A stretch of 64,000 bases of DNA from Struthio camelus (lineage: Eukaryota; Chordata; Aves; Struthioniformes; Struthionidae): NCBI RefSeq assembly GCF_040807025.1, contig NC_090942.1:208962640-209026639 (forward strand), written 5' to 3'. The position numbers were made by a program, and so were the translations under genes. This document shows positions 31,051-64,000 of the stretch, piece by piece. The notes beneath the pieces were generated by a model. The model was not told the origin of the DNA. It ran no database searches and saw nothing but the letters and a program-made list of their open reading frames with translations. The first letter of the stretch is position 1. The number at the start of each line of letters is the position of its first letter.

Positions 31051-31506
31051 TTGCATGAAGGACACTATACTGAATGAAGCTGCTGTTCTGTATAATTTTC
31101 CATCTGGAAGCAATAGTCAATTTCAGTCTGATCTAACCCTCTGTCAGATAGGTTTAAATAGTAAAAAAAGACTAGGTTCAATTTTTAAGGATCTACACTA
31201 AAAAACTAAACTAAAAACAGGTAGAGAAACTCTGGGAATGAGGCAAATGTTAGTCAAGCAAATTCCTCTGCTGAAACAAAAAAAAATAGCAACTAACGAA
31301 AAATTAGGACAAGCAGACCAATTAGTATCAGATTTCATGAAAGAAATAAATTATGCCCTGATTTTAGAGGAATTATCAACCTTTCATAAGAACGTTTAAA
31401 GTGAAACAGGTAAGTTCTATTTAACTAAAACTGGGTCCTATATTCATTTGATTTTAAATTCAAGAATTTGGAATATCAAAAACACTTTGTCTACCTGTGA
31501 ATGGGG
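31051..31506 (+). repeat. AT-rich spacer of unit 1
   Basis: AT-rich DNA shared by all five units. It contains two short open stretches, 31,055-31,201 (48 codons) and 31,238-31,399 (53 codons), that read somewhat like protein, and a splice-donor-like aacaggtaagt near 31,406. I do not recognise either product. The stretches are not kept equally in all five spacers, so they are probably not selected genes. Confidence 0.7.
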
Positions 31507-31550
31507 TGCAGCAAAAGGGAACCACCCTGTGTCTCACTATTAGTAAAGAG
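31507..31550 (+). pseudogene. 44-bp relic of the PHF7-like gene 3' end (unit 1)
   Basis: This piece (tgcagcaaaagggaacc through agtaaagag) matches 36,817-36,860 of the gene's 3' untranslated region with about five differences and includes the same agtaaa signal. Homology stops on both sides. It lies upstream of the gene, where a 3' end is not expected. Equivalent relics are at 40,553-40,596, 49,640-49,683, 50,948-50,991 and 59,914-59,957. Confidence 0.8.
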
Positions 31551-31638
31551 TTGGGTTGCCCCAAGGGAAGAAGTGACGTCCCACCAGGTAGCCAAGGGCT
31601 TTGCTTGGGCCTTTTCTCCTCCCCGGCAGCACTGGCCT

Positions 31639-32492
31639 GTCACAGTGGGGGAAGTGTGTCACCCCAGCGGTGGTGGTGCGTGACAGTGGGGGTCTGTGTC
31701 ACCCCAGTGGTGGTGGCGGGTCACAGTGGGGATCTGTGTCACCCCAGCGGTGGTGGCAGGTCACAGTGGGGGAAGTGTGTCACCCCAGCGGTGGTGGCGG
31801 GTCATAGTGGGGGAAGTGTGTCACCCCGGTGGCAGTGGTGGGTCACAGTGGGGGAAGTGTGTCACCCCGGCAGCGGTGGTGCGTGACAGTGGGGGTCTGT
31901 GTCACCCCAGTGGTGGTCCCAGGTCACAGTGGGTGAAGTGTGTCACCCCGGTGGCGGTGGTGGGTCACAGTGGGGGAAGTGTGTCACCCCGGCAGTGGTG
32001 GTGGGTCACAGTGGGGATCTGTGTCACCCCAGTGGTGGTCCCAGGTCACAGTGGGTGAAGTGTGTCACCCCGGTGGCGGTGTTGGGTCACAGTGGGGGAA
32101 GTGTGTCACCCCAGCGGTGGTGGCAGGTCACAGTGGGGGAAGTGTGTCACCCCAGTGGTGGTGGCAGGTCACAGTGGGGATCTGTGTCACCCCAGTGGTG
32201 GTGGCGGGTCACAGTGGGGGATCTCTGTCACCCCAGCGGTGGTGGCAGGTCACAGTGGGGGAAGTGTGTCACCACAGCGGTGGTGGCGGGTCACAGTGGG
32301 TGAAGTGTGTCACCCCAGCGGTGGTGGCGCGTCACAGTGGGGATCTGTGTCACCCCAGCGGTGGTGGCGTGTCACAGTGGGTGAAGTGTGTCACCCCAGC
32401 AGTGGTGGCGGGTCACAGTGGGGATCTGTGTCACCCCAGTGGTGGTGGCAGGTCACAGTGGGGGATCTGTGTCACCCCGGTGGCGGTGGTGG
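31639..32492 (+). repeat. 5' minisatellite of unit 1, 40/41-bp repeat, 21 copies
   Basis: Each repeat starts gtcacagtggggg, continues aagtgtgtcacccc or atctgtgtcacccc, and ends agcggtggtggcgg or a variant. 41-bp and 40-bp versions are mixed. The array is G-rich on the plus strand and ends exactly where the CpG-rich promoter begins (gtcacaatgaggcagg). Confidence 0.97.
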
Positions 32493-32961
32493 GTCACAAT
32501 GAGGCAGGTGAGGCGGGCGGCCCAGGCGGTACTAAAAGGGCCGCGGGGCGCGGGCAGCCCCAGGCGGGAGGCAGCGCCTCCGAGCACGGGACAGGTGAGG
32601 GCAGGGGAGGTGCCGCTGCCCCGCGCAGGGCCGGGCCCGGGGCGCTGCTGCAGCCCCGCTGGGCTCAAGGGCTGCGGCCGCGCTGCCCTGGGGCCTGGCC
32701 CGCTCCTGGCCCTGCGGCAGAGGCGGAGACCCACCGCCCCGGCCCGGCGGGAGGCGGGAGAGCCCAGGCAGGGGCTAGCGCGGGGCTGCCGCGGGAGCAG
32801 CAGCGGGGCCCCTCGCCCCGGGGGCTGGCGCTGGGCTGGAAAGTCACCCTGGTGCCGCTGCCCCGCCAGGGTCGGCGCAGGAGCGTGGGGAGCGGAGAGC
32901 CCGGCGCGGCTGGGCCAGGGCTTTTCCGCAGCACTCGCCGTCGACCCGCGTGGAGCGCGCC
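32493..32961 (+). promoter_or_regulatory. CpG-rich promoter and 5' leader of PHF7-like copy 1
   Basis: This 469-bp block is very GC- and CpG-rich. It holds a TATA-like tactaaaag at 32,530-32,538. A good splice donor, acag followed by gtgagg, ends at 32,594, and an acceptor, cttttccgcag, ends at 32,931. These suggest a short non-coding first exon (about 32,560-32,594) spliced to 32,932, 30 bp upstream of the start codon. The transcription start is inferred only from the TATA-like position. Confidence 0.6.
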
Positions 32962-35900
32962 ATGAAGCGCAAGGCCCCCGACTCGAGGGAGGAGGGTGAG
33001 AGCGAAGGGAGCGCCGAGGTGCCCGCAGCCCGCGGCCGGGCCAAGGGCTCGGGGGGCGGCTGGCGGGCGGCGGCGGGGAGGCCGGAGCGGCGCAGCGTGC
33101 CCGCAGCAGGACCCGTGCTCTCGCGCGCGCGAGGCCTGGGGCGTGGGGAGGGCCGTGCGGGGAGGAGGGCTGTGCCGGGGGGAGGAAAGGCCGGTGCTGC
33201 CCAGGGCTGGCCGGGAGCGAGAGGGGCCGGGAGAGGCGAGGGGAAGGCGAGGGCAGGTCGTGCCTGGGAGCCCCTGCGCCCGGGGCGGGAGCCTCCTCTG
33301 GGTCAGCGTGGGGCTGCCGGGGAGCCGTGGGGCGGCAGCCAGCACGTGGAGGGCGTCTGGGCAGCGGGGTGAGGGCAGGCCCTTGCGGGGGAAGCCCTCC
33401 AGGACCCTTTCGCAGGCCCCCGCGAGGCGCTCAGTGCTTGTGGCGTTTGCTCTCCCCTCCGCAGCGTGCGTGCTGTGTCGCCGGGCCGATTCCGACCCAG
33501 ATAAGTATGGGGAGAAACGGCGGCAGGACGGTCTCTGCGCCCATGAGAACTGCCTGGTGAGTGTCCCTGGGGCTGCCTCCAGCTTCCCGCGGTGGCCCAG
33601 CCCAGCAGCCTGCCATCTCCACACCCAGCCGGGCAGCTTTGGGGCGTGGGGGTGCGCCTGGCTCTGGGGCTGTGGAAATCCCATCCCAAGAGCTCTGCGA
33701 GTGCCGACTCCTCCTCGACGCCTCCGGGAGTGCCTTTGCTGCCCTCTGCTCGGGCTCTCGTCGTCTGCCCCAGCACGGCGTGTGCTCCGCTCAGCAGGGC
33801 CCAGCAGGCCAGCGCTGCCTGCAGGAGTGTCCGCCAGCCCCTCGCCCGGGCTCTCTGCGCCGCTGCCTTCCCAGCGCTCAGCACAGCCTGGCTGCCCACC
33901 TCTCCCACTCTTTGTGCTACTTGTTGTGGAGCAGCTCAAAGGCCCAGGAGCATTGCAGCTCGCTCAGTGCCAGGGAACTGAGCGTGGTGTGCCCCGGCCC
34001 TCTCGCCAGTGCCTCAGCACCGGCCGGCAGCAGTGGGCCGTGCCTGCCTGACCTACTGAGCTCTGGGACTTTTCTGTTTTTCAGTATCTTGCCAGCGGGC
34101 TCCCTGTGAGAGGCACCAACGAGCTGGGAGCCAACAAGTTCCTTCCGGCGGATATCAGGCGGGCAGTGAAGCGGGCAACTCGGAAGGTGAAGAGCTCGTC
34201 GGGGTGTGGGGAGGTCTGTGCCAGCATGGGTTTGTGCAAGCTCAGCCTGTGCCCTGGGGAGGAAACCTCGGGCTTTTCCGTCAGCTCCGGGCAACGCTCC
34301 CGCAAGCGGCAGGAGCTGCAGAGAGGCTCCAGCAGAAGCAGGAATGCCAGTGCCTGAGGTGGCTCTGCAGGACGGGACCCAGCAGTGCCCACGTGCCTGC
34401 AGCCTTCCCAGAGGTGTGGGGCAGGCCTTGGGGGCCCTGAGCGTGTCTCTGATGGGGCCTGCTGTGCTCTTTGCAGCGCTGCTACGTCTGTGGTGAGCGG
34501 GGAGCCACCATTAGCTGCCGGCAGAAGGGCTGCAAGCGCAGCTTCCACTTCCCCTGCGGCTGCGAAGATGGCTGCGTCTCGCAGTTCTTTGGGCAGCGCA
34601 GGTAAGAGCTGACGAGCCTCGTGCTGGGCCGCCTTTGCCTCCTTTGCCCTGCTGGCAGCACTGGCCAAGAGGGCGAAGCAGCTGCTTGCTCTGCTCTGCG
34701 GTGACCCTGCAGGAGCCCTGCCAGGGCCAGAGTCAGGGCATGGAGGGCTCCTTTATGCACCCCTTTTGCCTCCTCTGGGTGCAGGAGCAGAGTGGGAGGG
34801 TCTGTCCTCAGCCATGCCCTGGCAATCCCTTGTTCTCGGCTCCCGGGGGAGCTGGGGAAGCAGCAGCTGTGGCTGGGGGCTGGAGAGCCAGTGTGTTGGT
34901 CAGGCCTTCTGTCTGCAGGCAAGGTCCCTGAGCTTGGCGTGAGTGCGCCAGAGCCCACCTCAGAGGGGTGATGGCGGGGCCTCAGCTAGAATGTGCCGGG
35001 ACCCTTGGGTGGGAGATGCATGGGCAGGAAGGGGATGGGAAGAGAGACATGCACACATTGCGCAGGCAGCAGCCAGCCTCTACAGCCTGTGGGGTCGTCT
35101 TGTCCAGAAAGGCGGGAGGACTCCATGCGTCCTGACCTCGCCCACCCCTTCTGTGTTGCACCCAGGTCCTTCTGCCGGGAACATCGCCCAGAACAAACAG
35201 TGCAGGTGCAGCAGGATGGGGAGACCTCCTGCGTCATTTGTCTGGAGCCCGTGGAGGAACAGCTCTCCCACCACACTCTGGTGTGCCCTGCGTGTAGGCA
35301 CGCGTGGTTCCATCGGGGCTGCATCCAGGTAGGAGGCCCTTCCAGCGCCCCTTGGGCATGGCGGGTGCCCAGCAGTGGGCAGTGCCCCACTCACGTGGCT
35401 TGTGCCTCTCTTGCAGCAACAGGCTCTCAGCGCTGGCTTCTTCTGCTTGCAGTGCCCGCAGTGTAACGACAGGGAGACCTTCCTGTGGGAAATGTCTGCC
35501 ATGGGGATCCGAGTGCCCCTCCGGTTGGTTCTCTTCTGCCCTTGCCCCGTGCCCACGAGACAGAAGGAGGGCACGAGCACGAGGGGCAGGGGAGGCTCAT
35601 GCCCTTGCTTTGCTTCAACCTGTCAGACAACCCACCTGGGAGGCAGAGGGGGCCTTTGCTGAGCTCAATGAGAGGCACAGCCGCTGTGACGCCAGCCGGT
35701 GCCTTTCTGCGCGAGGCAGAGAAGAGGCAGCAGAAGAGGGGTAAGTCAGCAAAGCAGCAATTTCCCCACTGCCCATGTGGTGGCAGGTGCCCTAGTGGCA
35801 GTCTCGCGGCATCTCTGAGGGTCTTTGGAAGGTGGATGGACGCCCTCCAGGGGCGGAAGAAGAGGCAAAGGGACAGCCCTTTTCCATGGGGAGGCTGTGC

Positions 35901-36646
35901 TGCCAGGGCAGGAGGGATGGCCCTGCTAGCGCTGGCCAAGCAGTGCGCCAAGGAGTGGAGGGTTCGCCTGGGGCTGTGCCCAGGCTCTTCACCTCCCCAA
36001 GAGCTCTGGGAGCAAGGCCTCTCGGCACTGAGGTGGCACCAAGCCGGGGAGCTCTGCCAGGCACCCTCTTGCTCGAGTCTCTTTGTCCTTGGCCGCCTCC
36101 CTGGTGTCACCGCCAGCACTGGCTGCCACTTTGGCCACCAATCCGTTTGCTCTCCCAGGCCGTGGGAGCTGCTCCTGTGCTGCTCCTGTGCTGCCAGAGG
36201 CACGCACCGACGCTGCTCCGCCTTGAGGCCCACCACAGCCACGTGGGAGTGTGACGACTGTGCGGGTCTGGGCACTGGTAAGCGGAGAAGCTGTGTCCCC
36301 CTGGGTGCCCCCGGGCCACAGCCAGGGCCAGGCAGAGCCTTAGCATGGGTGCTCAGGGCGGGCTTGGCAGAGCGGTCTCTACTGCCAGGGGGCCACCGCT
36401 CTGGCCTCCCCTGCCCTGGGAGTGTGGGGGCGTGGGGCCGTGCTGCTGACCTTCCTGCCTCTCCTTGCAGCCTCCAGCGCGCAGTCGGGGCCGGCCACCT
36501 CCAGCAGCAGCAGCAGCCAAGCGGCATCATCCCCCAGCTCCCAGGCTCCTGCGAGCAGCAGCCGGGCAGGCCGGACTGGGCCAGAGCGAAGGCCAGGCCG
36601 CTCGCGGTTAAGGCGCCGCTCACAACATCCCTACAGCCGGCCCTGA
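32962..36646 (+). CDS. PHF7: PHF7-like PHD/RING-finger protein, copy 1 (nine coding exons)
   Basis: Exons: 32962-32995, 33465-33556, 34085-34186, 34477-34601, 35166-35328, 35417-35523, 35627-35740, 36159-36277, 36471-36646. All introns are GT-AG, phases join without error, and the sum is 1,032 nt (343 residues plus TGA). The start ATG has G at -3. Residues 13-41 form the C2HC knuckle of an extended PHD (C13, C16, H38, C41), followed by PHD ligands C78, C81, C90, C95, H100, C103, C121, H124. A RING/PHD finger follows (C140, C143, C158, C161, H167, C170, C185, C188), then MGIR near 201 and a third PHD (C228, C233, C254, C256, H262, C265, C277, C280). Residues 287-343 are Ser-rich, then Arg-rich (RSRLRRR), a possible nuclear signal. 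There is no HECT domain, so PHF7 fits better than G2E3. In mammals PHF7 reads histone H3 methylation and ubiquitinates histones in spermatids. Activity here is inferred. Confidence 0.92.
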
Positions 36647-36851
36647 AACGTCAGCGCTGCCCCAGCCCACACGGGCTCCTTCTTGGCAGCTCTGCGGGCC
36701 AGGCCTTGTGGCAGCCCCAAGGGATGCCACTGCTCCCCAGCCGTGGCACCTGCTGCCTGCGCCCGGCCTGCGTCCACAGTCCAGATGCGCTGCCTCACCC
36801 AAGAGGGGCGCTCCCTTGCAGCCACAGGGAACCACCCTGTGTCTCACTGTC

Positions 36852-36857
36852 AGTAAA
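36852..36857 (+). terminator. Likely polyadenylation signal of copy 1 (agtaaa)
   Basis: The variant hexamer agtaaa lies about 205 bp after the stop codon and is followed by a GT-rich stretch (gagctgtggccttc). No AATAAA is nearby. It is the only signal shared with the upstream relics. Confidence 0.5.
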
Positions 36858-37106
36858 GAGAATTGTATTTGAGTACCGTAGCAAGAGCTGTGGCCTTCTT
36901 TAAGTGCCGAGTGAGATCCAGGGATGCAAGTCACCTTTGTTGCAGAGTTAGAATTGCTGTAGAGCTGCGGTATACACCCCGCGTGCCCAGGGCCCTGAAG
37001 TCCTGAGTAGCCAGGGTGGCCCAGGAACTCGCCCACTGGTCTCTGTACTGAGGAGACTGTGGGTCAATTTGGGACAACGGATCAAGTGGAGACAAGGTCA
37101 CTGCCT

Positions 37107-37505
37107 GCAGAGACTGAGAGAGGTGGGACTGTTTAGCTTGGAGAAGGGCAGGCTCCCAGGGGGAGCCCGTCAATGTTGAGAAGTACCTGATGGGCGGGTG
37201 TAAAGCAGACGGAGCCAGACTCTTCTCGGGGCACTCCGTGAGTGGATGAGAGGCAGTGGGCACAAACTGGCACGCAGGCAATTCTCTCTGACCCTAAGAA
37301 AACCCTTCTTCCTTGCGAGGGTGGTGGAACATTGGAACAGGCTGCCCCAAGAGGTTGTGGAGTCTCCATCCTTGGAGATGCTGGAAAGCTGACCAGCCAC
37401 GGTCCCCAGCAACCTGCTCCAGCAGACCCTGCTTGAGCAGGGGGCTGGCACCAGAGGATCTCCAGGTGTCCCTTCCAACCCTTCCAACTCTTCTGTGCTT
37501 TTGGG
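37107..37505 (+). mobile_element. CR1 LINE 3' fragment in unit 1
   Basis: CR1-type sequence: gactgagagaggtgggactg, ttagcttggagaaggg, aacattggaacaggctgcccc, and the 3' part ggatctccaggtgtcccttcc. The terminal repeats are worn. It is present at the same place in every complete gene unit, so it predates the tandem duplication. Confidence 0.85.
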
Positions 37506-39334
37506 AACTCCGAGCCACTGGCACAATGCCTTTGACTGATTGTCACAAGAGCTCTCCAAGTGGCACTTTCTCTCGGGCTTCTCCTGCTTTGCCTGGCTTC
37601 CTCCATAGGTGCAAGCTGGGTGCTTGTGTGTGTTGATCAGCACCTTGCGTGGAGGCTGTGGCCATCCCAGAAACTGCGTGTTCGGCCATTCTGTCGGCCG
37701 GGGCTCAGCTGCGGGGGCCGGTCTGTCTAGCTCACAGGGTGGGTCTCTTCTTTACATGAGACAGGGTGTGCCCGGGGGCCCCTTGGTGGCCTCCTTGGAC
37801 AGGTCCGGAGCCCTGAGGCATGTTCCAAGTTCTTCTTTGTCCCGCGCATCCACCACCTCCGTGGGTGTGGTGTAGTCCTCCTGCAGACTTGAGGTTGCTC
37901 ATTGCAAAGGTTATAGCCTTATGAGTGGTCCCCTGCCAAGTCATCTGGCTTAGCATCCAACCCCTTGGTCCCCCTCAGGGCTCCCTGTAGTTTTTGTTTC
38001 CTTCCTTCAGCTGTGACCGCAGTTCTTCTCACTGACCACGTGGCTGCGGCTGATCTGTTTTATTTTAAGGGGTGCAGCCACATTTCCCCCTCGAGCCTAA
38101 TGGCATAGCAGAGGCCTGCTATGGCAGGAGAGAACCTGAGAGGTGGAGACATAGGATGCAACAGAGGAGTACAGGCATGGGGGGATAAGGCATGGGGCAC
38201 AGGCCGTCCTTGGAGACGCCACCCCTACCCACAAGTCCCCACTGGGCAGCTAAAGAAGGGGCGACCTGGCGCTGGAAAAGAAAAACATTGTCAGGGTTAA
38301 CCGAGAGAGCAAAGAACAAGTGTCTGACCTGAGTAAAATGCACCCCATGTGGTAAGTGTTAAAGGTGGAGCTCATGTGGAGCTGCAGGGCAGCGAAGGAA
38401 GGGCAAGGTGCAAAAGGATGTTGGCAAGCGTCTCCAAATGGCCCACAGTGGGTGCTAGCATGAGGAAGAAACCATCAGCGTGAACATGAGCCTCCTGCCA
38501 AAGGCCCAAGGACTCCAGGGGCTGCCAACTCACTGCAACGCCCTTCCCTCCACCTCCTCCAGACTGGAAGCCCCGACCTTGGGCGCCAGAGGAGTAGGGG
38601 AAGGGTGAGACAGAAAAGAGGCAGAGCCTGAGCACTGTGTGCAGACAGTTTTGAACTGTATTATTATTCTAAGAGGATCATTACTGACGCTTGGGTCTAG
38701 GTGGACCAATGCTCGGCCACAGAAGGGCTTCGTACTGCACTGTGGGCAGAGCCCACTTGACCTGGGCCCACTTGTCTTCCGCTTTCCAGATGGGCCAGCC
38801 TCAGCTTGAAATTGCCAATGTAACAAGGCAAAGTTCAAGTAACACAGCAGTTGATTCATGAAACCAGAGGAATTCATGTAACCGGACCAAGGAGGACTTT
38901 CATGCCTGAACTGCCTAGGCAGGATATTTTCGGAAAACATCCACCCGAAAAGCAAGCAAGCAAGCAAGCAAGCATGTGAGGCGTGCAGGCAAAAAACTGT
39001 GTGGTCCTTTGGGCAGGCATAATTACTTTGTTCTCTGTTTCTTCAAGGGTTCGCCCTCAGTTTGGGACAAGATTTGATGGAAAAGCAGATGTTCAGCTGC
39101 CTACTTCTCATCAGGACTGTCTTGACTGGCAAGGCATGGGCATTCGGCTTGTCAAGCAGCCCCTAGCTGTGTGTTGGATTTCTCAGGAAGAGGGCCCAAA
39201 AGGATTCTCTGTCAAACTTCCGTGTTAGCAGGACAAGGACAAGGTTGCCCCAAAGGAAGAAGTGGCACGTACCTCCTCCTTGGGTAGCCAAGGGCTTTGC
39301 TTGGGGCTTTTCTCCTCCCCGGCAGCACTGGCCT
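37506..39334 (+). other. Unrecognised 3' flank of unit 1
   Basis: Mixed-composition DNA without a recognised gene. It holds an 81-codon open frame at 38,983-39,228 (starting MQAKNCVV) of unknown meaning, kept with the same translation in units 2 and 4. The last 100 bp (ggttgccccaaaggaagaag to cactggcct) resemble the 90 bp in front of the 5' minisatellite. Confidence 0.5.
38950..38973 (+). repeat. (AAGC)6 microsatellite, unit 1
   Basis: Six perfect AAGC repeats. The same length occurs in units 2 and 4. Confidence 0.95.
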
Positions 39335-40096
39335 GTCACAGTGGGGGAAGTGTGTCACCCCAGCGGTGGTGGTGCGTGACAGTGGGGGTCTGTGTCACCC
39401 CAGTGGTGGTGGCGGGTCACAGTGGGTGAACTATGTCACCCCAGCGGTGGTGGCGCGTCACAGTGGGGGAAGTGTGTCACCCCAGCAGTGGTGGCGCGTC
39501 ACAGTGGGGATCTGTGTCACCCCAGCGGTGGTGGCAGGTCACAGTGGGGGAAGTGTGTCACCCCAGTGATGGTGGCAGGTCACAGTGGGGGATCTGTGTC
39601 ACCCCGGTGGCGGTGTTGGGTCACAGTGGGGGAAGTGTGTCACCCCAGCGGTGGTGGTGCATGACAGTGGGGGAAGTGTGTCACCCTGGCAGTGGTGGTG
39701 GGTCACAGTGGGGGAAGTGTGTCACCCCGGCAGTGGTGGCAGGTCACAGTGGGGGAAGTGTGTCACCCCAGCGGTGGTGGCAGGTCACAGTGGGGGATCT
39801 GTGTCACCCCAGCGGTGGTGGTGCGTGACAGTGGGGGAAGTGTGTCACCCCAGCGGTGGTGGCGGGTCACAGTGGGGATCTGTGTCACCCCAGCAGTGGT
39901 GGCAGGTCACAGTGGGGGAAGTGTGTCACCCCAGTGGTGGTGGCAGGTCACAGTGGGGGAAGTGTGTCACCCCGGCAGTGGTGGCGGGTCACAGTGGGGA
40001 TCTGTGTCACCCCGGCAGTGGTGGCAGGTCACAGTGGGGGAAGTGTGTCACCCCAGTGGTGGTGGCAGGTCACAGTGGGGAATCTGTGTCACCCCT
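39335..40096 (+). repeat. 3' minisatellite of unit 1, about 18.7 copies
   Basis: Same 40/41-bp repeat as the 5' arrays. It ends in a partial repeat (cacccc) directly joined to ttgcatgaagg of the next unit. It has the same length (762 bp) as the 3' array of unit 4, and the two look identical or nearly so. Confidence 0.96.
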
Positions 40097-40552
40097 TTGC
40101 ATGAAGGACACTATACTGAATGAAGCTGCGGTTCTGTATAATTTTCCATCTGGAAGTAATAGTCAATTTCAGTCTGATCTAACCCTCTGTCAGATAGGTT
40201 TAAATAGTAAAAAAAGACTAGGTTCAATTTTTAAGGATCTACACTAAAAAACTAAACTAAAAACAGGTAGAGAAACTCTGGGAATGAGGCAAATGTTAGT
40301 CAAGCAAATTCCTCTGCTGAAACAAAAAAAAATAGCAACTAACGAAAAATTAGGACAAGCAGACCAATTAGTATCAGATTTCATGAAAGAAATAAATTAT
40401 GCCCTGATTTTAGAGGAATTATCAACCTTTCATAAGAACGTTTAAAGTGAAACAGGTAAGTTCTATTTAACTAAAACTGGGTCCTATATTCATTTGATTT
40501 TAAATTCAAGAATTTGGAATATCAAAAACATTTTGTCTAGCTGTGAATGGGG
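40097..40552 (+). repeat. AT-rich spacer of unit 2
   Basis: Same as the unit 1 spacer with a few base changes. The gene-3'-end relic follows at 40,553-40,596. Confidence 0.7.
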
Positions 40553-40596
40553 TGCAGCAAAAGGGAACCACCCTGTGTCTCACTATTAGTAAAGAG
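40553..40596 (+). pseudogene. Gene-3'-end relic, unit 2
   Basis: Same 44-bp piece as at 31,507-31,550. Confidence 0.8.
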
Positions 40597-40684
40597 TTGG
40601 GTTGCCCCAAGGGAAGAAGTGACGTCCCACCAGGTAGCCAAGGGCTTTGCTTGGGCCTTTTCTCCTCCCCGGCAGCACTGGCCT

Positions 40685-41335
40685 GTCACAGTGGGGGAAG
40701 TGTGTCACCCCAGCGGTGGTGGTGCGTGACAGTGGGGGTCTGTGTCACCCCAGTGGTGGTCCCAGGTCACAGTGGGTGAAGTGTGTCACCCCAGCAGTGG
40801 TGGCGCGTCACAGTGGGGAAAGTATGTCACCCCAGCAGTGGTGGCGGGTCACAGTGGGGATCTGTGTCACCCCAGCGGTGGTGGCAGGTCACAGTGGGGG
40901 AAGTGTGTCACCCCAGCGGTGGTGGCGGGTCATAGTGGGGGAAGTGTGTCACCCCGGTGGCGGTGGTGGGTCACAGTGGGGGAAGTGTGTCACCCCGGCA
41001 GTGGTGGTGCGTGACAGTGGGGGTCTGTGTCACCCCAGTGGTGGTCCCAGGTCACAGTGGGTGAAGTGTGTCACCCCGGTGGCGGTGTTGGGTCACAGTG
41101 GGGGAAGTGTGTCACCCCAGCAGTGGTGGCGGGTCACAGTGGGGGAAGTGTGTCACCCCAGCGGTGGTGGCGGGTCACAGTGGGGATCTGTGTCACCCCA
41201 GCGGTGGTGGCGTGTCACAGTGGGTGAAGTGTGTCACCCCAGCAGTGGTGGCGGGTCACAGTGGGGATCTGTGTCACCCCAGTGGTGGTGGCAGGTCACA
41301 GTGGGGGATCTGTGTCACCCCGGTGGCGGTGGTGG
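40685..41335 (+). repeat. 5' minisatellite of unit 2, 16 copies
   Basis: 651 bp of the 40/41-bp repeat, directly against the promoter of copy 2. Same length and repeat order as in unit 5. Confidence 0.97.
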
Positions 41336-41804
41336 GTCACAATGAGGCAGGTGAGGCGGGCGGCCCAGGCGGTACTAAAAGGGCCGCGGGGCGCGGGCAG
41401 CCCCAGGCGGGAGGCAGCGCCTCCGAGCACGGGACAGGTGAGGGCAGGGGAGGTGCCGCTGCCCCGCGCAGGGCCGGGCCCGGGGCGCTGCTGCAGCCCC
41501 GCTGGGCTCAAGGGCCGCGGCCGCGCTGCCCTGGGGCCTGGCCCGCTCCTGGCCCTGCGGCAGAGGCGGAGACCCACCGCCCCGGCCCGGCGGGAGGCGG
41601 GAGAGCCCAGGCAGGGGCTAGCGCGGGGCTGCCGCGGGAGCAGCAGCGGGGCCCCTCGCCCCGGGGGCTGGCGCTGGGCTGGAAAGTCACCCTGGTGCCG
41701 CTGCCCCGCCAGGGTCGGCGCAGGAGCGTGGGGAGCGGAGAGCCCGGCGCGGCTGGGCCAGGGCTTTTCCGCAGCACTCGCCGTCGACCCGCGTGGAGCG
41801 CGCC
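41336..41804 (+). promoter_or_regulatory. CpG-rich promoter and leader of copy 2
   Basis: 469 bp, as in copy 1. TATA-like tactaaaag at 41,373-41,381, possible leader donor after 41,437 and acceptor before 41,775. Confidence 0.6.
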
Positions 41805-52322: not shown

Positions 52323-55300
52323 ATGAAGCGCAAGGCCCCCGACTCGAGGGAGGAGGGTGAGAGCGAAGGGAGCGCCGAGGTGCCCGCAGCCCGCGGCCGG
52401 GCCAAGGGCTCGGGGGGCGGCTGGCGGGCGGCGGCGGGGAGGCCGGAGCGGCGCAGCGTGCCCGCGGCAGGACCCGTGCTCTCGCGCGTGCGAGGCCTGG
52501 GGCGCGGGGAGGGCCGTGCGGGGAGAAGGGCTGTGCCGGGGGGAGGAAAGGCCGGTGCTGCCCAGGGCTGGCCGGGAGCGAGAGGGGCCGGGAGAGGCGA
52601 GGGGAAGGCGAGGGCAGGTCGTGCCTGGGAGCCCCTGCGCCCGGGGCGGGAGCCTCCTCTGGGTCAGCGTGGGGCTGCCGGGGAGCCGTGGGGCGGCAGC
52701 CAGCACGTGGAGGGCGTCTGGGCAGCGGGGTGAGGGCAGGCCCTTGCGGGGGAAGCCCTCCAGGACCCTTTCGCAGGCCCCCGCGAGGCGCTCAGTGCTT
52801 GTGGCGTTTGCTCTCCCCTCCGCAGCGTGCGTGCTGTGTCGCCGGGCCGATTCCGACCCAGATAAGTATGGGGAGAAACGGCGGCAGGACGGTCTCTGCG
52901 CCCATGAGAACTGCCTGGTGAGTGTCCCTGGGGCTGCCTCCAGCTTCCCGCGGTGGCCCAGCCCAGCAGCCTGCCATCTCCACGCCCAGCCGGGCAGCTT
53001 TGGGGCGTGGGGGTGCGCCTGGCTCTGGGGCTGTGGAAATCCCATCCCAAGAGCTCTGCGAGTGCCGACTCCTCCTCGACGCCTCCGGGAGTCCCTTTGC
53101 TGCCCTCTGCTCGGGCTCTCGTCGTCCGCCCCAGCACGGCGTGTGCTCCGCTCAGCAGGGCCCAGCAGGCCAGCGCTGCCTGCAGGAGTGTCCGCCAGCC
53201 CCTCGCCCGGGCTCTCTGCGCCGCTGCCTTCCCAGCGCTCAGCACAGCCTGGCTGCCCACCTCTCCCACTCTTTGTGCTACTTGTTGTGGAGCAGCTCAA
53301 AGGCCCAGGAGCATTGCAGCTCGCTCAGTGCCAGGGAACTGAGCGTGGTGTGCCCCGGCCCTCTCGCCAGTGCCTCAGCACCGGCTGGCAGCAGTGGGCC
53401 GTGCCTGCCTGACCTACTGAGCTCTGGGACTTTTCTGTTTTTCAGTATCTTGCCAGCGGGCTCCCTGTGAGAGGCACCAACGAGCTGGGAGCCAACAAGT
53501 TCCTTCCGGCGGATATCAGGCGGGCAGTGAAGCGGGCAACTCGGAAGGTGAAGAGCTCGTCGGGGTGTGGGGAGGTCTGTGCCAGCATGGGTTTGTGCAA
53601 GCTCAGCCTGTGCCCTGGGGAGGAAACCTCGGGCTTTTCCGTCAGCTCCGGGCAACGCTCCCGCAAGCGGCAGGAGCTGCAGAGAGGCTCCAGCAGAAGC
53701 AGGAATGCCAGTGCCTGAGGTGGCTCTGCAGGACGGGACCCAGCAGTGCCCACGTGCCTGCAGCCTTCCCAGAGGTGTGGGGCAGGCCTTGGGGGCCCTG
53801 AGCGTGTCTCTGATGGGGCCTGCTGTGCTCTTTGCAGCGCTGCTACGTCTGTGGTGAGCGGGGAGCCACCATTAGCTGCCGGCAGAAGGGCTGCAAGCGC
53901 AGCTTCCACTTCCCCTGCGGCTGCGAAGATGGCTGCGTCTCGCAGTTCTTTGGGCAGCGCAGGTAAGAGCTGACGAGCCTCGTGCTGGGCCGCCTTTGCC
54001 TCCTTTGCCCTGCTGGCAGCACTGGCCAAGAGGGCGAAGCAGCTGCTTGCTCTGCTCTGCGGTGACCCTGCAGGAGCCCTGCCAGGGCCAGAGTCAGGGC
54101 ATGGAGGGCTCCTTTATGCACCCCTTTTGCCTCCTCTGGGTGCAGGAGCAGAGTGGGAGGGTCTGTCCTCAGCCATGCCCTGGCAATCCCTTGTTCTCGG
54201 CTCCCGGGGGAGCTGGGGAAGCAGCAGCTGTGGCTGGGGGCTGGAGAGCCAGTGTGTTGGTCAGGCCTTCTGTCTGCAGGCAAGGTCCCTGAGCTTGGCG
54301 TGAGTGCGCCAGAGCCCACCTCAGAGGGGTGATGGCGGGGCCTCAGCTAGAATGTGCCGGGACCCTTGGGTGGGAGATGCATGGGCAGGAAGGGGATGGG
54401 AAGAGAGACATGCACACATTGCGCAGGCAGCAGCCAGCCTCTACAGCCTGTGGGGTCGTCTTGTCCAGAAAGGCGGGAGGACTCCATGCGTCCTGACCTC
54501 GCCCACCCCTTCTGTGTTGCACCCAGGTCCTTCTGCCGGGAACATCGCCCAGAACAAACAGTGCAGGTGCAGCAGGATGGGGAGACCTCCTGCGTCATTT
54601 GTCTGGAGCCCGTGGAGGAACAGCTCTCCCACCACACTCTGGTGTGCCCTGCGTGTAGGCACGCGTGGTTCCATCGGGGCTGCATCCAGGTAGGAGGCCC
54701 TTCCAGCGCCCCTTGGGCATGGCGGGTGCCCAGCAGTGGGCAGTGCCCCACTCACGTGGCTTGTGCCTCTCTTGCAGCAACAGGCTCTCAGCGCTGGCTT
54801 CTTCTGCTTGCAGTGCCCACAGTGTAACGACAGGGAGACCTTCCTGTGGGAAATGTCTGCCATGGGGATCCGAGTGCCCCTCCGGTTGGTTCTCTTCTGC
54901 CCTTGCCCCGTGCCCACGAGACAGAAGGAGGGCACGAGCACGAGGGGCAGGGGAGGCTCATGCCCTTGCTTTGCTTCAACCTGTCAGACAACCCACCTGG
55001 GAGGCAGAGGGGGCCTTTGCTGAGCTCAATGAGAGGCACAGCCGCTGTGACGCCAGCCGGTGCCTTTCTGCGCGAGGCAGAGAAGAGGCAGCAGAAGAGG
55101 GGTAAGTCAGCAAAGCAGCAATTTCCCCACTGCCCATGTGGTGGCAGGTGCCCTAGTGGCAGTCTCGCGGCATCTCTGAGGGTCTTTGGAAGGTGGATGG
55201 ACGCCCTCCAGGGGTGGAAGAAGAGGCAAAGGGACAGCCCTTTTCCATGGGGAGGCTGTGCTGCCAGGGCAGGAGGGATGGCCCTGCTAGCGCTGGCCAA

Positions 55301-56007
55301 GCAGTGCGCCAAGGAGTGGAGGGTTCGCCTGGGGCTGTGCCCAGGCTCTTCACCTCCCCAAGAGCTCTGGGAGCAAGGCCTCTCGGCACTGAGGTGGCAC
55401 CAAGCCGGGGAGCTCTGCCAGGCACCCTCTTGCTCGAGTCTCTTTGTCCTTGGCCGCCTCCCTGGTGTCACCGCCAGCACTGGCTGCCACTTTGGCCACC
55501 AATCCGTTTGCTCTCCCAGGCCGTGGGAGCTGCTCCTGTGCTGCTCCTGTGCTGCCAGAGGCACGCACCGACGCTGCTCCGCCTTGAGGCCCACCACAGC
55601 CACGTGGGAGTGTGACGACTGTGCGGGTCTGGGCACTGGTAAGCGGAGAAGCTGTGTCCCCCTGGGTGCCCCCGGGCCACAGCCAGGGCCAGGCAGAGCC
55701 TTAGCATGGGTGCTCAGGGCGGGCTTGGCAGAGCGGTCTCTACTGCCAGGGGGCCACCGCTCTGGCCTCCCCTGCCCTGGGAGTGTGGGGGCGTGGGGCC
55801 GTGCTGCTGACCTTCCTGCCTCTCCTTGCAGCCTCCAGCGCGCAGTCGGGGCCGGCCACCTCCAGCAGCAGCAGCAGCCAAGCGGCATCATCCCCCAGCT
55901 CCCAGGCTCCTGCGAGCAGCAGCCGGGCAGGCCGGACTGGGCCAGAGCGAAGGCCAGGCCGCTCGCGGTTAAGGCGCCGCTCACAACATCCCTACAGCCG
56001 GCCCTGA
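52323..56007 (+). CDS. PHF7: PHF7-like PHD/RING-finger protein, copy 3
   Basis: Exons: 52323-52356, 52826-52917, 53446-53547, 53838-53962, 54527-54689, 54778-54884, 54988-55101, 55520-55638, 55832-56007. All lie exactly 19,361 bp from copy 1. The predicted 343-residue protein is unchanged. Variants in intron 1 and the silent site in exon 6 (54,819, A) match copy 2. Variants just after the stop codon (56,012, T) and in the 3' flank match copy 1. The gene is thus a mosaic of the two types. Private intronic changes include ggggtggaag near 55,212. Confidence 0.92.
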
Positions 56008-56212
56008 AACGTCAGCGCTGCCCCAGCCCACACGGGCTCCTTCTTGGCAGCTCTGCGGGCCAGGCCTTGTGGCAGCCCCAAGGGATGCCACTGCTCCCCA
56101 GCCGTGGCACCTGCTGCCTGCGCCCGGCCTGCGTCCACAGTCCAGATGCGCTGCCTCACCCAAGAGGGGCGCTCCCTTGCAGCCACAGGGAACCACCCTG
56201 TGTCTCACTGTC

Positions 56213-56218
56213 AGTAAA
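56213..56218 (+). terminator. Likely polyadenylation signal of copy 3 (agtaaa)
   Basis: Same hexamer and position as in copy 1. Confidence 0.5.
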
Positions 56219-56467
56219 GAGAATTGTATTTGAGTACCGTAGCAAGAGCTGTGGCCTTCTTTAAGTGCCGAGTGAGATCCAGGGATGCAAGTCACCTTTG
56301 TTGCAGAGTTAGAATTGCTGTAGAGCTGCGGTATACACCCCGCGTGCCCAGGGCCCTGAAGTCCTGAGTAGCCAGGGTGGCCCAGGAACTCGCCCACTGG
56401 TCTCTGTACTGAGGAGACTGTGGGTCAATTTGGGACAACGGATCAAGTGGAGACAAGGTCACTGCCT

Positions 56468-56866
56468 GCAGAGACTGAGAGAGGTGGGACTGTTTAGCTT
56501 GGAGAAGGGCAGGCTCCCAGGGGGAGCCCGTCAATGTTGAGAAGTACCTGATGGGCGGGTGTAAAGCAGACGGAGCCAGACTCTTCTCGGGGCACTCCGT
56601 GAGTGGATGAGAGGCAGTGGGCACAAACTGGCACGCAGGCAATTCTCTCTGACCCTAAGAAAACCCTTCTTCCTTGCGAGGGTGGTGGAACATTGGAACA
56701 GGCTGCCCCAAGAGGTTGTGGAGTCTCCATCCTTGGAGATGCTGGAAAGCTGACCAGCCACGGTCCCCAGCAACCTGCTCCAGCAGACCCTGCTTGAGCA
56801 GGGGGCTGGCACCAGAGGATCTCCAGGTGTCCCTTCCAACCCTTCCAACTCTTCTGTGCTTTTGGG
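56468..56866 (+). mobile_element. CR1 LINE 3' fragment in unit 4
   Basis: Equivalent to the fragment at 37,107-37,505. Confidence 0.85.
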
Positions 56867-58695
56867 AACTCCGAGCCACTGGCACAATGCCTTTGACTGA
56901 TTGTCACAAGAGCTCTCCAAGTGGCACTTTCTCTCGGGCTTCTCCTGCTTTGCCTGGCTTCCTCCATAGGTGCAAGCTGGGTGCTTGTGTGTGTTGATCA
57001 GCACCTTGCGTGGAGGCTGTGGCCATCCCAGAAACTGCGTGTTCGGCCATTCTGTCGGCCGGGGCTCAGCTGCGGGGGCCGGTCTGTCTAGCTCACAGGG
57101 TGGGTCTCTTCTTTACATGAGACAGGGTGTGCCCGGGGGCCCCTTGGTGGCCTCCTTGGACAGGTCCGGAGCCCTGAGGCATGTTCCAAGTTCTTCTTTG
57201 TCCCGCGCATCCACCACCTCCGTGGGTGTGGTGTAGTCCTCCTGCAGACTTGAGGTTGCTCATTGCAAAGGTTATAGCCTTATGAGTGGTCCCCTGCCAA
57301 GTCATCTGGCTTAGCATCCAACCCCTTGGTCCCCCTCAGGGCTCCCTGTAGTTTTTGTTTCCTTCCTTCAGCTGTGACCGCAGTTCTTCTCACTGACCAC
57401 GTGGCTGCGGCTGATCTGTTTTATTTTAAGGGGTGCAGCCACATTTCCCCCTCGAGCCTAATGGCATAGCAGAGGCCTGCTATGGCAGGAGAGAACCTGA
57501 GAGGTGGAGACATAGGATGCAACAGAGGAGTACAGGCATGGGGGGATAAGGCATGGGGCACAGGCCGTCCTTGGAGACGCCACCCCTACCCACAAGTCCC
57601 CACTGGGCAGCTAAAGAAGGGGCGACCTGGCGCTGGAAAAGAAAAACATTGTCAGGGTTAACCGAGAGAGCAAAGAACAAGTGTCTGACCTGAGTAAAAT
57701 GCACCCCATGTGGTAAGTGTTAAAGGTGGAGCTCATGTGGAGCTGCAGGGCAGCGAAGGAAGGGCAAGGTGCAAAAGGATGTTGGCAAGCGTCTCCAAAT
57801 GGCCCACAGTGGGTGCTAGCATGAGGAAGAAACCATCAGCGTGAACATGAGCCTCCTGCCAAAGGCCCAAGGACTCCAGGGGCTGCCAACTCGCTGCAAC
57901 GCCCTTCCCTCCACCTCCTCCAGACTGGAAGCCCCGACCTTGGGCGCCAGAGGAGTAGGGGAAGGGTGAGACAGAAAAGAGGCAGAGCCTGAGCACTGTG
58001 TGCAGACAGTTTTGAACTGTATTATTATTCTAAGAGGATCATTACTGACGCTTGGGTCTAGGTGGACCAATGCTCGGCCACAGAAGGGCTTCGTACTGCA
58101 CTGTGGGCAGAGCCCACTTGACCTGGGCCCACTTGTCTTCCGCTTTCCAGATGGGCCAGCCTCAGCTTGAAATTGCCAATGTAACAAGGCAAAGTTCAAG
58201 TAACACAGCAGTTGATTCATGAAACCAGAGGAATTCATGTAACCGGACCAAGGAGGACTTTCATGCCTGAACTGCCTAGGCAGGATATTTTCGGAAAACA
58301 TCCACCCGAAAAGCAAGCAAGCAAGCAAGCAAGCATGTGAGGCGTGCAGGCAAAAAACTGTGTGGTCCTTTGGGCAGGCATAATTACTTTGTTCTCTGTT
58401 TCTTCAAGGGTTCGCCCTCAGTTTGGGACAAGATTTGATGGAAAAGCAGATGTTCAGCTGCCTACTTCTCATCAGGACTGTCTTGACTGGCAAGGCATGG
58501 GCATTCGGCTTGTCAAGCAGCCCCTAGCTGTGTGTTGGATTTCTCAGGAAGAGGGCCCAAAAGGATTCTCTGTCAAACTTCCGTGTTAGCAGGACAAGGA
58601 CAAGGTTGCCCCAAAGGAAGAAGTGGCACGTACCTCCTCCTTGGGTAGCCAAGGGCTTTGCTTGGGGCTTTTCTCCTCCCCGGCAGCACTGGCCT
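56867..58695 (+). other. Unrecognised 3' flank of unit 4
   Basis: Same as in unit 1. The 81-codon frame is at 58,344-58,589 and an (AAGC)6 run at 58,311-58,334. Confidence 0.5.
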
Positions 58696-59457
58696 GTCAC
58701 AGTGGGGGAAGTGTGTCACCCCAGCGGTGGTGGTGCGTGACAGTGGGGGTCTGTGTCACCCCAGTGGTGGTGGCGGGTCACAGTGGGTGAACTATGTCAC
58801 CCCAGCGGTGGTGGCGCGTCACAGTGGGGGAAGTGTGTCACCCCAGCAGTGGTGGCGCGTCACAGTGGGGATCTGTGTCACCCCAGCGGTGGTGGCAGGT
58901 CACAGTGGGGGAAGTGTGTCACCCCAGTGATGGTGGCAGGTCACAGTGGGGGATCTGTGTCACCCCGGTGGCGGTGTTGGGTCACAGTGGGGGAAGTGTG
59001 TCACCCCAGCGGTGGTGGTGCATGACAGTGGGGGAAGTGTGTCACCCTGGCAGTGGTGGTGGGTCACAGTGGGGGAAGTGTGTCACCCCGGCAGTGGTGG
59101 CAGGTCACAGTGGGGGAAGTGTGTCACCCCAGCGGTGGTGGCAGGTCACAGTGGGGGATCTGTGTCACCCCAGCGGTGGTGGTGCGTGACAGTGGGGGAA
59201 GTGTGTCACCCCAGCGGTGGTGGCGGGTCACAGTGGGGATCTGTGTCACCCCAGCAGTGGTGGCAGGTCACAGTGGGGGAAGTGTGTCACCCCAGTGGTG
59301 GTGGCAGGTCACAGTGGGGGAAGTGTGTCACCCCGGCAGTGGTGGCGGGTCACAGTGGGGATCTGTGTCACCCCGGCAGTGGTGGCAGGTCACAGTGGGG
59401 GAAGTGTGTCACCCCAGTGGTGGTGGCAGGTCACAGTGGGGAATCTGTGTCACCCCT
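58696..59457 (+). repeat. 3' minisatellite of unit 4, about 18.7 copies
   Basis: 762 bp, matching the 3' array of unit 1 in length and repeat order. Confidence 0.96.
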
Positions 59458-59913
59458 TTGCATGAAGGACACTATACTGAATGAAGCTGCGGTTCTGTAT
59501 AATTTTCCATCTGGAAGTAATAGTCAATTTCAGTCTGATCTAACCCTCTGTCAGATAGGTTTAAATAGTAAAAAAAGACTAGGTTCAATTTTTAAGGATC
59601 TACACTAAAAAACTAAACTAAAAACAGGTAGAGAAACTCTGGGAATGAGGCAAATGTTAGTCAAGCAAATTCCTCTGCTGAAACAAAAAAAAATAGCAAC
59701 TAACGAAAAATAAGGACAAGCAGACCAATTAGTATCAGATTTCATGAAAGAAATAAATTATGCCCTGATTTTAGAGGAATTATCAACCTTTCATAAGAAC
59801 GTTTAAAGTGAAACAGGTAAGTTCTATTTAACTAAAACTGGGTCCTATATTCATTTGATTTTAAATTCAAGAATTTGGAATATCAAAAACATTTTGTCTA
59901 GCTATGAATGGGG
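59458..59913 (+). repeat. AT-rich spacer of unit 5
   Basis: Carries the gaaaaataagg variant shared with unit 3, and its own change gctatgaatgg near 59,902. Confidence 0.7.
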
Positions 59914-59957
59914 TGCAGCAAAAGGGAACCACCCTGTGTCTCACTATTAGTAAAGAG
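59914..59957 (+). pseudogene. Gene-3'-end relic, unit 5
   Basis: Same 44-bp piece as in the other units. Confidence 0.8.
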
Positions 59958-60045
59958 TTGGGTTGCCCCAAGGGAAGAAGTGACGTCCCACCAGGTAGCC
60001 AAGGGCTTTGCTTGGGCCTTTTCTCCTCCCCGGCAGCACTGGCCT

Positions 60046-60696
60046 GTCACAGTGGGGGAAGTGTGTCACCCCTGCGGTGGTGGTGCGTGACAGTGGGGGT
60101 CTGTGTCACCCCAGTGGTGGTCCCAGGTCACAGTGGGTGAAGTGTGTCACCCCAGCAGTGGTGGCGCGTCACAGTGGGGAAAGTATGTCACCCCAGCAGT
60201 GGTGGCGGGTCACAGTGGGGATCTGTGTCACCCCAGCGGTGGTGGCAGGTCACAGTGGGGGAAGTGTGTCACCCCAGCGGTGGTGGCGGGTCATAGTGGG
60301 GGAAGTGTGTCACCCCGGTGGCGGTGGTGGGTCACAGTGGGGGAAGTGTGTCACCCCGGCAGTGGTGGTGCGTGACAGTGGGGGTCTGTGTCACCCCAGT
60401 GGTGGTCCCAGGTCACAGTGGGTGAAGTGTGTCACCCCGGTGGCGGTGTTGGGTCACAGTGGGGGAAGTGTGTCACCCCAGCAGTGGTGGCGGGTCACAG
60501 TGGGGGAAGTGTGTCACCCCAGCGGTGGTGGCGGGTCACAGTGGGGATCTGTGTCACCCCAGCGGTGGTGGCGTGTCACAGTGGGTGAAGTGTGTCACCC
60601 CAGCAGTGGTGGCGGGTCACAGTGGGGATCTGTGTCACCCCAGTGGTGGTGGCAGGTCACAGTGGGGGATCTGTGTCACCCCGGTGGCGGTGGTGG
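60046..60696 (+). repeat. 5' minisatellite of unit 5, 16 copies
   Basis: 651 bp, same length and repeat order as in unit 2. One difference seen: cacccctgcgg near 60,067. Confidence 0.97.
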
Positions 60697-61165
60697 GTCA
60701 CAATGAGGCAGGTGAGGCGGGCGGCCCAGGCGGTACTAAAAGGGCCGCGGGGCGCGGGCAGCCCCAGGCGGGAGGCAGCGCCTCCGAGCACGGGACAGGT
60801 GAGGGCAGGGGAGGTGCCGCTGCCCCGCGCAGGGCCGGGCCCGGGGCGCTGCTGCAGCCCCGCTGGGCTCAAGGGCCGCGGCCGCGCTGCCCTGGGGCCT
60901 GGCCCGCTCCTGGCCCTGCGGCAGAGGCGGAGACCCACCGCCCCGGCCCGGCGGGAGGCGGGAGAGCCCAGGCAGGGGCTAGCGCGGGGCTGCCGCGGGA
61001 GCAGCAGCGGGGCCCCTCGCCCCGGGGGCTGGCGCTGGGCTGGAAAGTCACCCTGGTGCCGCTGCCCCGCCAGGGTCGGCGCAGGAGCGTGGGGAGCGGA
61101 GAGCCCGGCGCGGCTGGGCCAGGGCTTTTCCGCAGCACTCGCCGTCGACCCGCGTGGAGCGCGCC
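60697..61165 (+). promoter_or_regulatory. CpG-rich promoter and leader of copy 4
   Basis: 469 bp, same elements as in copy 1. TATA-like tactaaaag at 60,734-60,742. Confidence 0.6.
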
Positions 61166-64000
61166 ATGAAGCGCAAGGCCCCCGACTCGAGGGAGGAGGG
61201 TGAGAGCGAAGGGAGCGCCGAGGTGCCCGCAGCCCGCGGCCGGGCCAAGGGCTCGGGGGGCGGCTGGCGGGTGGCGGCGGGGTGGCCGGAGCGGCGCAGC
61301 GTGCCCGCGGCAGGACCCGTGCTCTCGCGCGCGCGAGGCCTGGGGCGCGGGGAGGGCCGTGCGGGGAGGAGGGCTGTGCCGGGGGGAGGAAAGGCCGGTG
61401 CTGCCCAGGGCTGGCCGGGAGCGAGAGGGGCCGGGAGAGGCGAGGGGAAGGCGAGGGCAGGTCGTGCCTGGGAGCCCCTGCGCCCGGGGCGGGAGCCTCC
61501 TCTGGGTCAGCGTGGGGCTGCCGGGGAGCCGTGGGGTGGCAGCCAGCACGTGGAGGGCGTCTGGGCAGCGGGGTGAGGGCAGGCCCTTGCGGGGGAAGCC
61601 CTCCAGGACCCTTTCGCAGGCCCCCGCGAGGCGCTCAGTGCTTGTGGCGTTTGCTCTCCCCTCCGCAGCGTGCGTGCTGTGTCGCCGGGCCGATTCCGAC
61701 CCAGATAAGTATGGGGAGAAACGGCGGCAGGACGGTCTCTGCGCCCATGAGAACTGCCTGGTGAGTGTCCCTGGGGCTGCCTCCAGCTTCCCGCGGTGGC
61801 CCAGCCCAGCAGCCTGCCATCTCCACGCCCAGCCGGGCAGCTTTGGGGCGTGGGGGTGCGCCTGGCTCTGGGGCTGTGGAAATCCCATCCCAAGAGCTCT
61901 GCGAGTGCCAACTCCTCCTCGACGCCTCCGGGAGTCCCTTTGCTGCCCTCTGCTCGGGCTCTCGTCGTCCGCCCCAGCACGGCGTGTGCTCCGCTCAGCA
62001 GGGCCCAGCAGGCCAGCGCTGCCTGCAGGAGTGTCCGCCAGCCCCTCGCCCGGGCTCTCTGCGCCGCTGCCTTCCCAGCGCTCAGCACAGCCTGGCTGCC
62101 CACCTCTCCCACTCTTTGTGCTACTTGTTGTGGAGCAGCTCAAAGGCCCAGGAGCATTGCAGCTCGCTCAGTGCCAGGGAACTGAGCGTGGTGTGCCCCG
62201 GCCCTCTCGCCAGTGCCTCAGCACCGGCCGGCAGCAGTGGGCCGTGCCTGCCTGACCTACTGAGCTCTGGGACTTTTCTGTTTTTCAGTATCTTGCCAGC
62301 GGGCTCCCTGTGAGAGGCACCAACGAGCTGGGAGCCAACAAGTTCCTTCCGGCGGATATCAGGCGGGCAGTGAAGCGGGCAACTCGGAAGGTGAAGAGCT
62401 CGTCGGGGTGTGGGGAGGTCTGTGCCAGCATGGGTTTGTGCAAGCTCAGCCTGTGCCCTGGGGAGGAAACCTCGGGCTTTTCCGTCAGCTCCGGGCAACG
62501 CTCCCGCAAGCGGCAGGAGCTGCAGAGAGGCTCCAGCAGAAGCAGGAATGCCAGTGCCTGAGGTGGCTCTGCAGGACGGGACCCAGCAGTGCCCACGTGC
62601 CTGCAGCCTTCCCAGAAGTGTGGGGCAGGCCTTGGGGGCCCTGAGCGTGTCTCTGATGGGGCCTGCTGTGCTCTTTGCAGCGCTGCTACGTCTGTGGTGA
62701 GCGGGGAGCCACCATTAGCTGCCGGCAGAAGGGCTGCAAGCGCAGCTTCCACTTCCCCTGCGGCTGCGAAGATGGCTGCGTCTCGCAGTTCTTTGGGCAG
62801 CGCAGGTAAGAGCTGACGAGCCTCGTGCTGGGCCGCCTTTGCCTCCTTTGCCCTGCTGGCAGCACTGGCCAAGAGGGCGAAGCAGCTGCTTGCTCTGCTC
62901 TGCGGTGACCCTGCAGGAGCCCTGCCAGGGCCAGAGTCAGGGCATGGAGGGCTCCTTTATGCACCCCTTTTGCCTCCTCTGGGTGCAGGAGCAGAGTGGG
63001 AGGGTCTGTCCTCAGCCATGCCCTGGCAATCCCTTGTTCTCGGCTCCCGGGGGAGCTGGGGAAGCAGCAGCTGTGGCTGGGGGCTGGAGAGCCAGTGTGT
63101 TGGTCAGGCCTTCTGTCTGCAGGCAAGGTCCCTGAGCTTGGCGTGAGTGCGCCAGAGCCCACCTCAGAGGGGTGATGGCGGGGCCTCAGCTAGAATGTGC
63201 CGGGACCCTTGGGTGGGAGATGCATGGGCAGGAAGGGGATGGGAAGAGAGACATGCACACATTGCGCAGGCAGCAGCCAGCCTCTACAGCCTGTGGGGTC
63301 GTCTTGTCCAGAAAGGCGGGAGGACTCCATGCGTCCTGACCTCGCCCACCCCTTCTGTGTTGCACCCAGGTCCTTCTGCCGGGAACATCGCCCAGAACAA
63401 ACAGTGCAGGTGCAGCAGGATGGGGAGACCTCCTGCGTCATTTGTCTGGAGCCCGTGGAGGAACAGCTCTCCCACCACACTCTGGTGTGCCCTGCGTGTA
63501 GGCACGCGTGGTTCCATCGGGGCTGCATCCAGGTAGGAGGCCCTTCCAGCGCCCCTTGGGCATGGCGGGTGCCCAGCAGTGGGCAGTGCCCCACTCACGT
63601 GGCTTGTGCCTCTCTTGCAGCAACAGGCTCTCAGCGCTGGCTTCTTCTGCTTGCAGTGCCCACAGTGTAACGACAGGGAGACCTTCCTGTGGGAAATGTC
63701 TGCCATGGGGATCCGAGTGCCCCTCCGGTTGGTTCTCTTCTGCCCTTGCCCCGTGCCCACGAGACAGAAGGAGGGCACGAGCACGAGGGGCAGGGGAGGC
63801 TCATGCCCTTGCTTTGCTTCAACCTGTCAGACAACCCACCTGGGAGGCAGAGGGGGCCTTTGCTGAGCTCAATGAGAGGCACAGCCGCTGTGACGCCAGC
63901 CGGTGCCTTTCTGCGCGAGGCAGAGAAGAGGCAGCAGAAGAGGGGTAAGTCAGCAAAGCAGCAATTTCCCCACTGCCCATGTGGTGGCAGGTGCCCTAGT
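61166..64000 (+). CDS. PHF7: PHF7-like PHD/RING-finger protein, copy 4 (3' end outside the window)
   Basis: Exons visible: 61166-61199, 61669-61760, 62289-62390, 62681-62805, 63370-63532, 63621-63727, 63831-63944. The window ends in intron 7. All exons lie 28,204 bp from copy 1 and 19,361 bp from copy 2. The 245 full codons present give the same residues as the other copies and cover the extended PHD, the RING/PHD finger and the first two ligands (C228, C233) of the third finger. Intron 1 carries private changes (ggcgggtggcgg and ggggtggccgg near 61,265-61,285). Exons 8 and 9 are expected just beyond the window. Confidence 0.9.

Follow-up and report, generated by a model that had tools for sequence, protein, structure and literature searches.

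A tandem array of PHF7-like genes encoding one identical protein on contig C1 of the ostrich genome

The window studied here is a 64-kb stretch of the 1.45-Gb Struthio camelus genome (C1:208962640–209026639), and its right-hand part holds a head-to-tail array of nine-exon genes related to PHF7 (PHD finger protein 7). A BLAST comparison of the window with itself showed large direct repeats filling it from position 31050 to its end, among them a 13.6-kb pair (31050–44639 versus 50491–64000, 98.7% identity) and further pairs of 8.3 kb at about 98%. Four PHF7-like start codons lie within these repeats, at 32962, 41805, 52323, and 61166. We also examined the 40 kb to the right of the window, where the array runs on with two more complete copies (5 and 6) and a seventh that is broken off in exon 2, giving six complete genes for seven starts, all located with one exact search string. 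Successive starts are separated by 8,843, 10,518, 8,843, 9,618, 8,885, and 12,274 bp, corresponding to a repeat unit of 8.8–12.3 kb. The initial annotation had described four copies lying head to tail about 9–10.5 kb apart, which is right for the window and understates an array that continues into the flank. The left edge at 31050 coincides with the start of a 589-bp spacer and is one base away from the start proposed in that annotation (31051). On the right, copy 7 (L011, C1:209054582 onward) is preserved from the upstream segment through exon 1 and intron 1 into the very beginning of exon 2; past this point it has no match to the unit, which marks the right end of the array.

All array features located in the window lie on the + strand. 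Copy 1 extends from ATG to stop over 32962–36646, with exons at 32962–32995, 33465–33556, 34085–34186, 34477–34601, 35166–35328, 35417–35523, 35627–35740, 36159–36277, and 36471–36646; their lengths are 34, 92, 102, 125, 163, 107, 114, 119, and 176 bases, stop codon included. Copies 2 (41805–45489) and 3 (52323–56007) repeat this exon layout at offsets of +8843 and +19361, respectively, and encode the same protein. For copy 4, the window includes exons 1–7 (61166–64000); exons 8 and 9 lie beyond, and the gene, which is whole in the genome, ends at 64850 on the window scale. Each of the six complete copies has eight GT-AG introns, an acceptor AG in front of exon 9 (from 36471 in copy 1), and a stop codon in exon 9. 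An alternative end of exon 1 at 33018 was dropped, as the donor at 32996 gives the frame that fits the NCBI protein. The nine exons, the 343-residue product, the equal exon and intron lengths, and the identical proteins anticipated in the initial annotation were thus recovered, free of gaps, in six of six complete copies.

The best protein match to the 343-residue product is the NCBI entry 'PHD finger protein 7-like isoform X2 [Struthio camelus]', which equals it exactly once residues 173–184 are removed. Exon 6 encodes these residues in its first 36 bases, and because that stretch ends in CAG, use of an inner acceptor explains the shorter isoform; the array gene is already annotated at NCBI. 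Among solved structures, the best match is PHD finger protein 7 (8jwu, E 2.4e-82). Solved PHF7 covers residues 8–305 of 343, and identity to 8jwj amounts to 127 of 282 aligned residues (45%). An N-terminal extended PHD was recognized above cut-off by two Pfam models, zf-HC5HC2H (E 3e-19, residues 38–125) and zf-HC5HC2H_2 (E 2.5e-9, residues 12–113). The central RING has C140, C143, C158, C161, H167, C170, C185, and C188, which we assign as zinc ligands from the usual RING spacing, and this region is covered by the match to the PHF7-UBE2D2 fusion 8jwu. At the C-terminal end, residues 215–284 match the PHD of 1weq (PHD finger protein 7, E 9e-20) and keep C228, C233, C253, C256, H262, C265, C277, and C280. 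The cysteines and histidines of the RING and PHD are largely kept, and the Pfam scan of the spliced protein returned zinc-finger families only, without a HECT domain. By its domain content, the array protein is a PHF7, with an extended PHD, a RING, a PHD, and no HECT match. The Pfam, structural, and NCBI matches agree with the PHF7-like identity proposed at the outset; the accompanying term "chromatin reader" fits the PHD fingers but tells only half the story, because PHF7 in mammals also ubiquitinates histones as a RING E3 ligase.

Pairwise, the gene spans of the six complete copies align without gaps and differ at 1–11 of 3,685 bases, and all six are distinct. The coding sequences fall into three versions that differ at two synonymous sites, and 16 of 2,653 intron sites are variable. 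The downstream segment of the unit (36647–39242 in the first unit, ~2.6 kb) varies in 8 of 2,596 columns after alignment; an ungapped comparison gives ~318 apparent differences in copy 2, an effect of a 1-base gap. The 457-bp upstream segment (32505–32961 for copy 1), presumed to be the promoter, shows 0–2 differences between any two complete copies and also precedes copy 7. The 589-bp spacer was found ten times, with eight variable positions and at most six differences per pair. Since gene, downstream segment, and spacer are all near-identical, it is the whole unit that is young or homogenized, not the gene alone.

Variable nonsynonymous sites numbered 0 of ~785, against 4.7 expected at the intron rate (one-sided Fisher P = 0.016; P = 0.035 with the downstream sites added), which provides weak evidence of selection on the PHF7-like protein. 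Compared with paralogues at five other loci (L025–L029), the ratio of nonsynonymous to synonymous substitution rates (dN/dS) was 0.30–0.41; exon 1 was left out, exon 3 was not found in L026, and the exons used in L026, L027, and L029 may derive from two neighboring copies. Against older pieces at C1:206.87–206.88 Mb, the values were 0.66 (L023, without an exon 2 match) and 0.56 (L024, matched in two exons only).

Between the genes, the array consists of spacers and minisatellite blocks. Spacers in the window occupy 31050–31638 (at the left edge), 40096–40684, 49183–49771, 50491–51079, and 59457–60045. Tandem Repeats Finder reported 15 blocks of a 41-bp minisatellite with 16 to 68 units each; the largest (67539–70320) encloses a spacer and so counts as two, and among uninterrupted blocks the largest reaches ~33 units. 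In the window, these blocks lie at 31639–32498 (upstream of copy 1), 39335–40095, 40685–41341 (upstream of copy 2), 48177–49182, 49772–50490, 51080–51859 (upstream of copy 3), 58696–59456, and 60046–60702 (upstream of copy 4). The number and length of spacers and blocks vary between units while gene lengths are constant, as expected of unequal exchange within the blocks. Part of the downstream segment (~37111–37509) recurs outside the array, 67–72% alike, beside reading frames resembling those of long interspersed nuclear elements (LINEs). A short piece of the same 41-bp minisatellite was also seen upstream of a single paralogue at C1:22.65 Mb. LINE-like reverse-transcriptase reading frames, recognized by eye, are present in the left flank at 1273–2127 and 27102–28591 of the window, and the stretches 1074–2339 and 27322–28591 are 86% alike.

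The array belongs to a larger family in the ostrich. A whole-genome protein search returned 143 rows, in which matches to the RING exon were counted by hand (118 of 3052 candidates were scored). At least 54 such matches were found: at least eight on C1, six of them in the main array, 13 on C7, nine on C14, nine on C16, 13 on C41, and one each on C2 and C40. Some hold stop codons, and gene integrity was checked in the main array alone. PHF7-like arrays thus occur on four other contigs, one of which is probably Z. The DMRT cluster sits on the bird Z, and C41 carries three DM-domain matches within ~100 kb, as expected of that cluster; C41 is therefore probably the Z chromosome. Ten tandem PHF7-like matches, mostly ~5.4 kb apart, were seen on C41 at 31.38–31.43 and 31.66 Mb, with two more on the opposite strand. 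The matches at C7:43.94–44.14 Mb and at C14:22.07 and 23.12–23.15 Mb lie on both strands, largely alternating, and these groups resemble inverted pairs, unlike the head-to-tail main array. Two similar matches, at C40:61274352 and C41:80745318, each contain two TAG and one TAA codon, and are perhaps, as a guess, a pseudogene common to two sex chromosomes. Closer to the array, an older PHF7-like copy at C1:206.87 Mb (L023, 5204–9103) is 93% identical to the unit and has no match to exons 1 and 2. The idea that this truncated copy and copy 7 are halves of one gene was dropped in view of that 93% identity and because the former begins at unit position 34098 and the latter ends at 33482.

For the relationships of the array protein, a quick tree was built from 44 rows, comprising this protein and 43 others chosen from the best 120 of 376 matches; support was taken solely from the Shimodaira-Hasegawa-like approximate likelihood ratio test (SH-aLRT). 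The array groups with rhea, kiwi, cassowary, and emu sequences (7 rows, SH-aLRT 98). With kiwi and tinamou sequences and another ostrich gene from chromosome 1, the group grows to 11 rows (95), after which duck and goose join (13 rows, 97). Searching other birds with the 343-residue product, as the initial annotation had proposed, thus yielded relatives in ratites, tinamous, duck, and goose within the matches so chosen. The ostrich belongs to the deepest split among living birds. The grouping of ratites and tinamous with two waterfowl points to an old origin, and the lineage is probably older than the array.

We consider it highly likely (probability about 0.88) that the locus is a tandem array belonging to the known bird PHF7 family, multiplied by unequal crossing over and raising the dose of a histone E3 ligase. 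The upstream segment and the nine-exon gene make up the unit together with intergenic DNA that holds the 589-bp spacers and 41-bp minisatellite blocks. Unequal crossing over would have multiplied this unit and, as a recent process, probably kept the copies near-identical; the exchange would most likely have taken place within the minisatellite and spacer repeats, the 41-bp blocks being plausible crossover substrates. The recent amplification suggested in the initial annotation is accordingly well supported by the near-identity of the six copies, provided that it is read as amplification or homogenization.

As to function, PMC6792021 describes mouse PHF7 as binding H3K4me2/3 via its PHD, ubiquitinating H2A via its RING, and being needed for histone removal in spermatids. 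Activity on H3K14 has also been reported, and in vitro activity requires the RING, the PHD, and the extended PHD (PMC13061254). By homology, the ostrich protein would bind histones and serve as a RING E3 ligase in male germ cells that have completed meiosis, ahead of histone exchange, and a role like that of mammalian PHF7 in ostrich male germ cells is most likely. Use in the testis would follow for the ostrich solely by analogy with chicken, whose PHF7 copies are expressed mainly in testis according to PMC6609395. The effect of several identical copies would simply be a higher dose of one protein.

Some observations weigh against this explanation of the locus. Pfam RING_2 scored below its cut-off (22.3 versus 27.3 bits), and the C-terminal finger matched no Pfam PHD model in the scan of the spliced protein. 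The nonsynonymous-site test for selection on the protein is weak, with none observed against ~4.7 expected. The crossover site is itself something we infer, and the left edge at the start of a spacer fits it without proving it. An unlikely alternative is that the identity of the copies reflects youth or homogenization alone, without selection on the protein, and that some copies may be non-functional. Non-coding DNA downstream of the genes shows the same degree of likeness as the genes themselves, so that selection is unnecessary to explain it, and the nonsynonymous-site test reaches P values of only 0.016–0.035; on the other side stand the intactness of six of six copies, the lack of any nonsynonymous change among them, and the dN/dS obtained with the paralogues at five other loci.

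Extreme likeness, with copies 4 and 6 differing at 1 of 3,685 bases across their gene spans, could also come from an assembly in which fewer copies were multiplied or two haplotypes were set in tandem. We regard such an artefact as extremely improbable: six complete copies exceed what two haplotypes would supply, every gene span is distinct, and the units vary in length and in their spacer blocks. Moreover, the closest rhea relative (82% identical, among the best 120 of 376 matches) represents a five-member cluster on one contig, whose members may be copies or isoforms. That genetic conflict drives the family, for instance a conflict between spermatid-expressed copies on Z and on autosomes, appears quite improbable, as the protein does not change within the array and an amplified dose accounts for the same pattern. 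A related and highly improbable idea is that the arrays on C1, three further contigs, and the probable Z form an antagonistic, germline-expressed dosage system. Were it true, minisatellite-driven copy change at one array would answer change at another, and copy number would affect sperm or Z transmission. The ostrich offers a cleanly assembled PHF7 array whose six identical proteins and variable minisatellite spacers make it convenient for measuring how copy number changes and how dose acts in sperm development.

Compared with solved PHF7 (8jwu, 8jwj, 8jws, and 1weq), the ostrich protein aligns in the cysteines and histidines of the extended PHD and the C-terminal PHD; it differs in the RING, where C158, A160, and C161 stand opposite S, C, and C. 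G2E3 is described as closely related to PHF7 (PMC12794477) and as having a RING akin to that of PHF7 (PMC13061254). G2E3 has a HECT domain, according to PMC12794477, whereas the ostrich protein gave no HECT match in the Pfam scan.

The closest comparison is with the multigene PHF7 family of birds, whose chicken members are named PHF7A1, PHF7A2, PHF7B1, and so on. The literature gives predicted Phf7 co-orthologues of 63 in chicken, 38 in zebra finch, 17 in turkey, and 6 in duck (PMC6609395), 60 chicken copies with 16 on Z (PMC12794477), and a PHF7 expansion in turkey (PMC10360393). No paper on the ostrich array was found in the literature searched, whose coverage leaves out most subscription journals. 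The array is a further case of the amplification published for several birds, an amplification not confined to this locus. Shared with that family, as described in PMC12794477, PMC6609395, and PMC10360393, are the protein family itself, a high copy number in clusters spread over several chromosomes, Z among them, and the lack of a HECT domain. The array differs in its place within the ratite and tinamou lineage; the two chicken chromosome-1 proteins included in the tree are placed elsewhere. A further difference, with the chicken arrays known here from published descriptions, is that its six proteins are identical.
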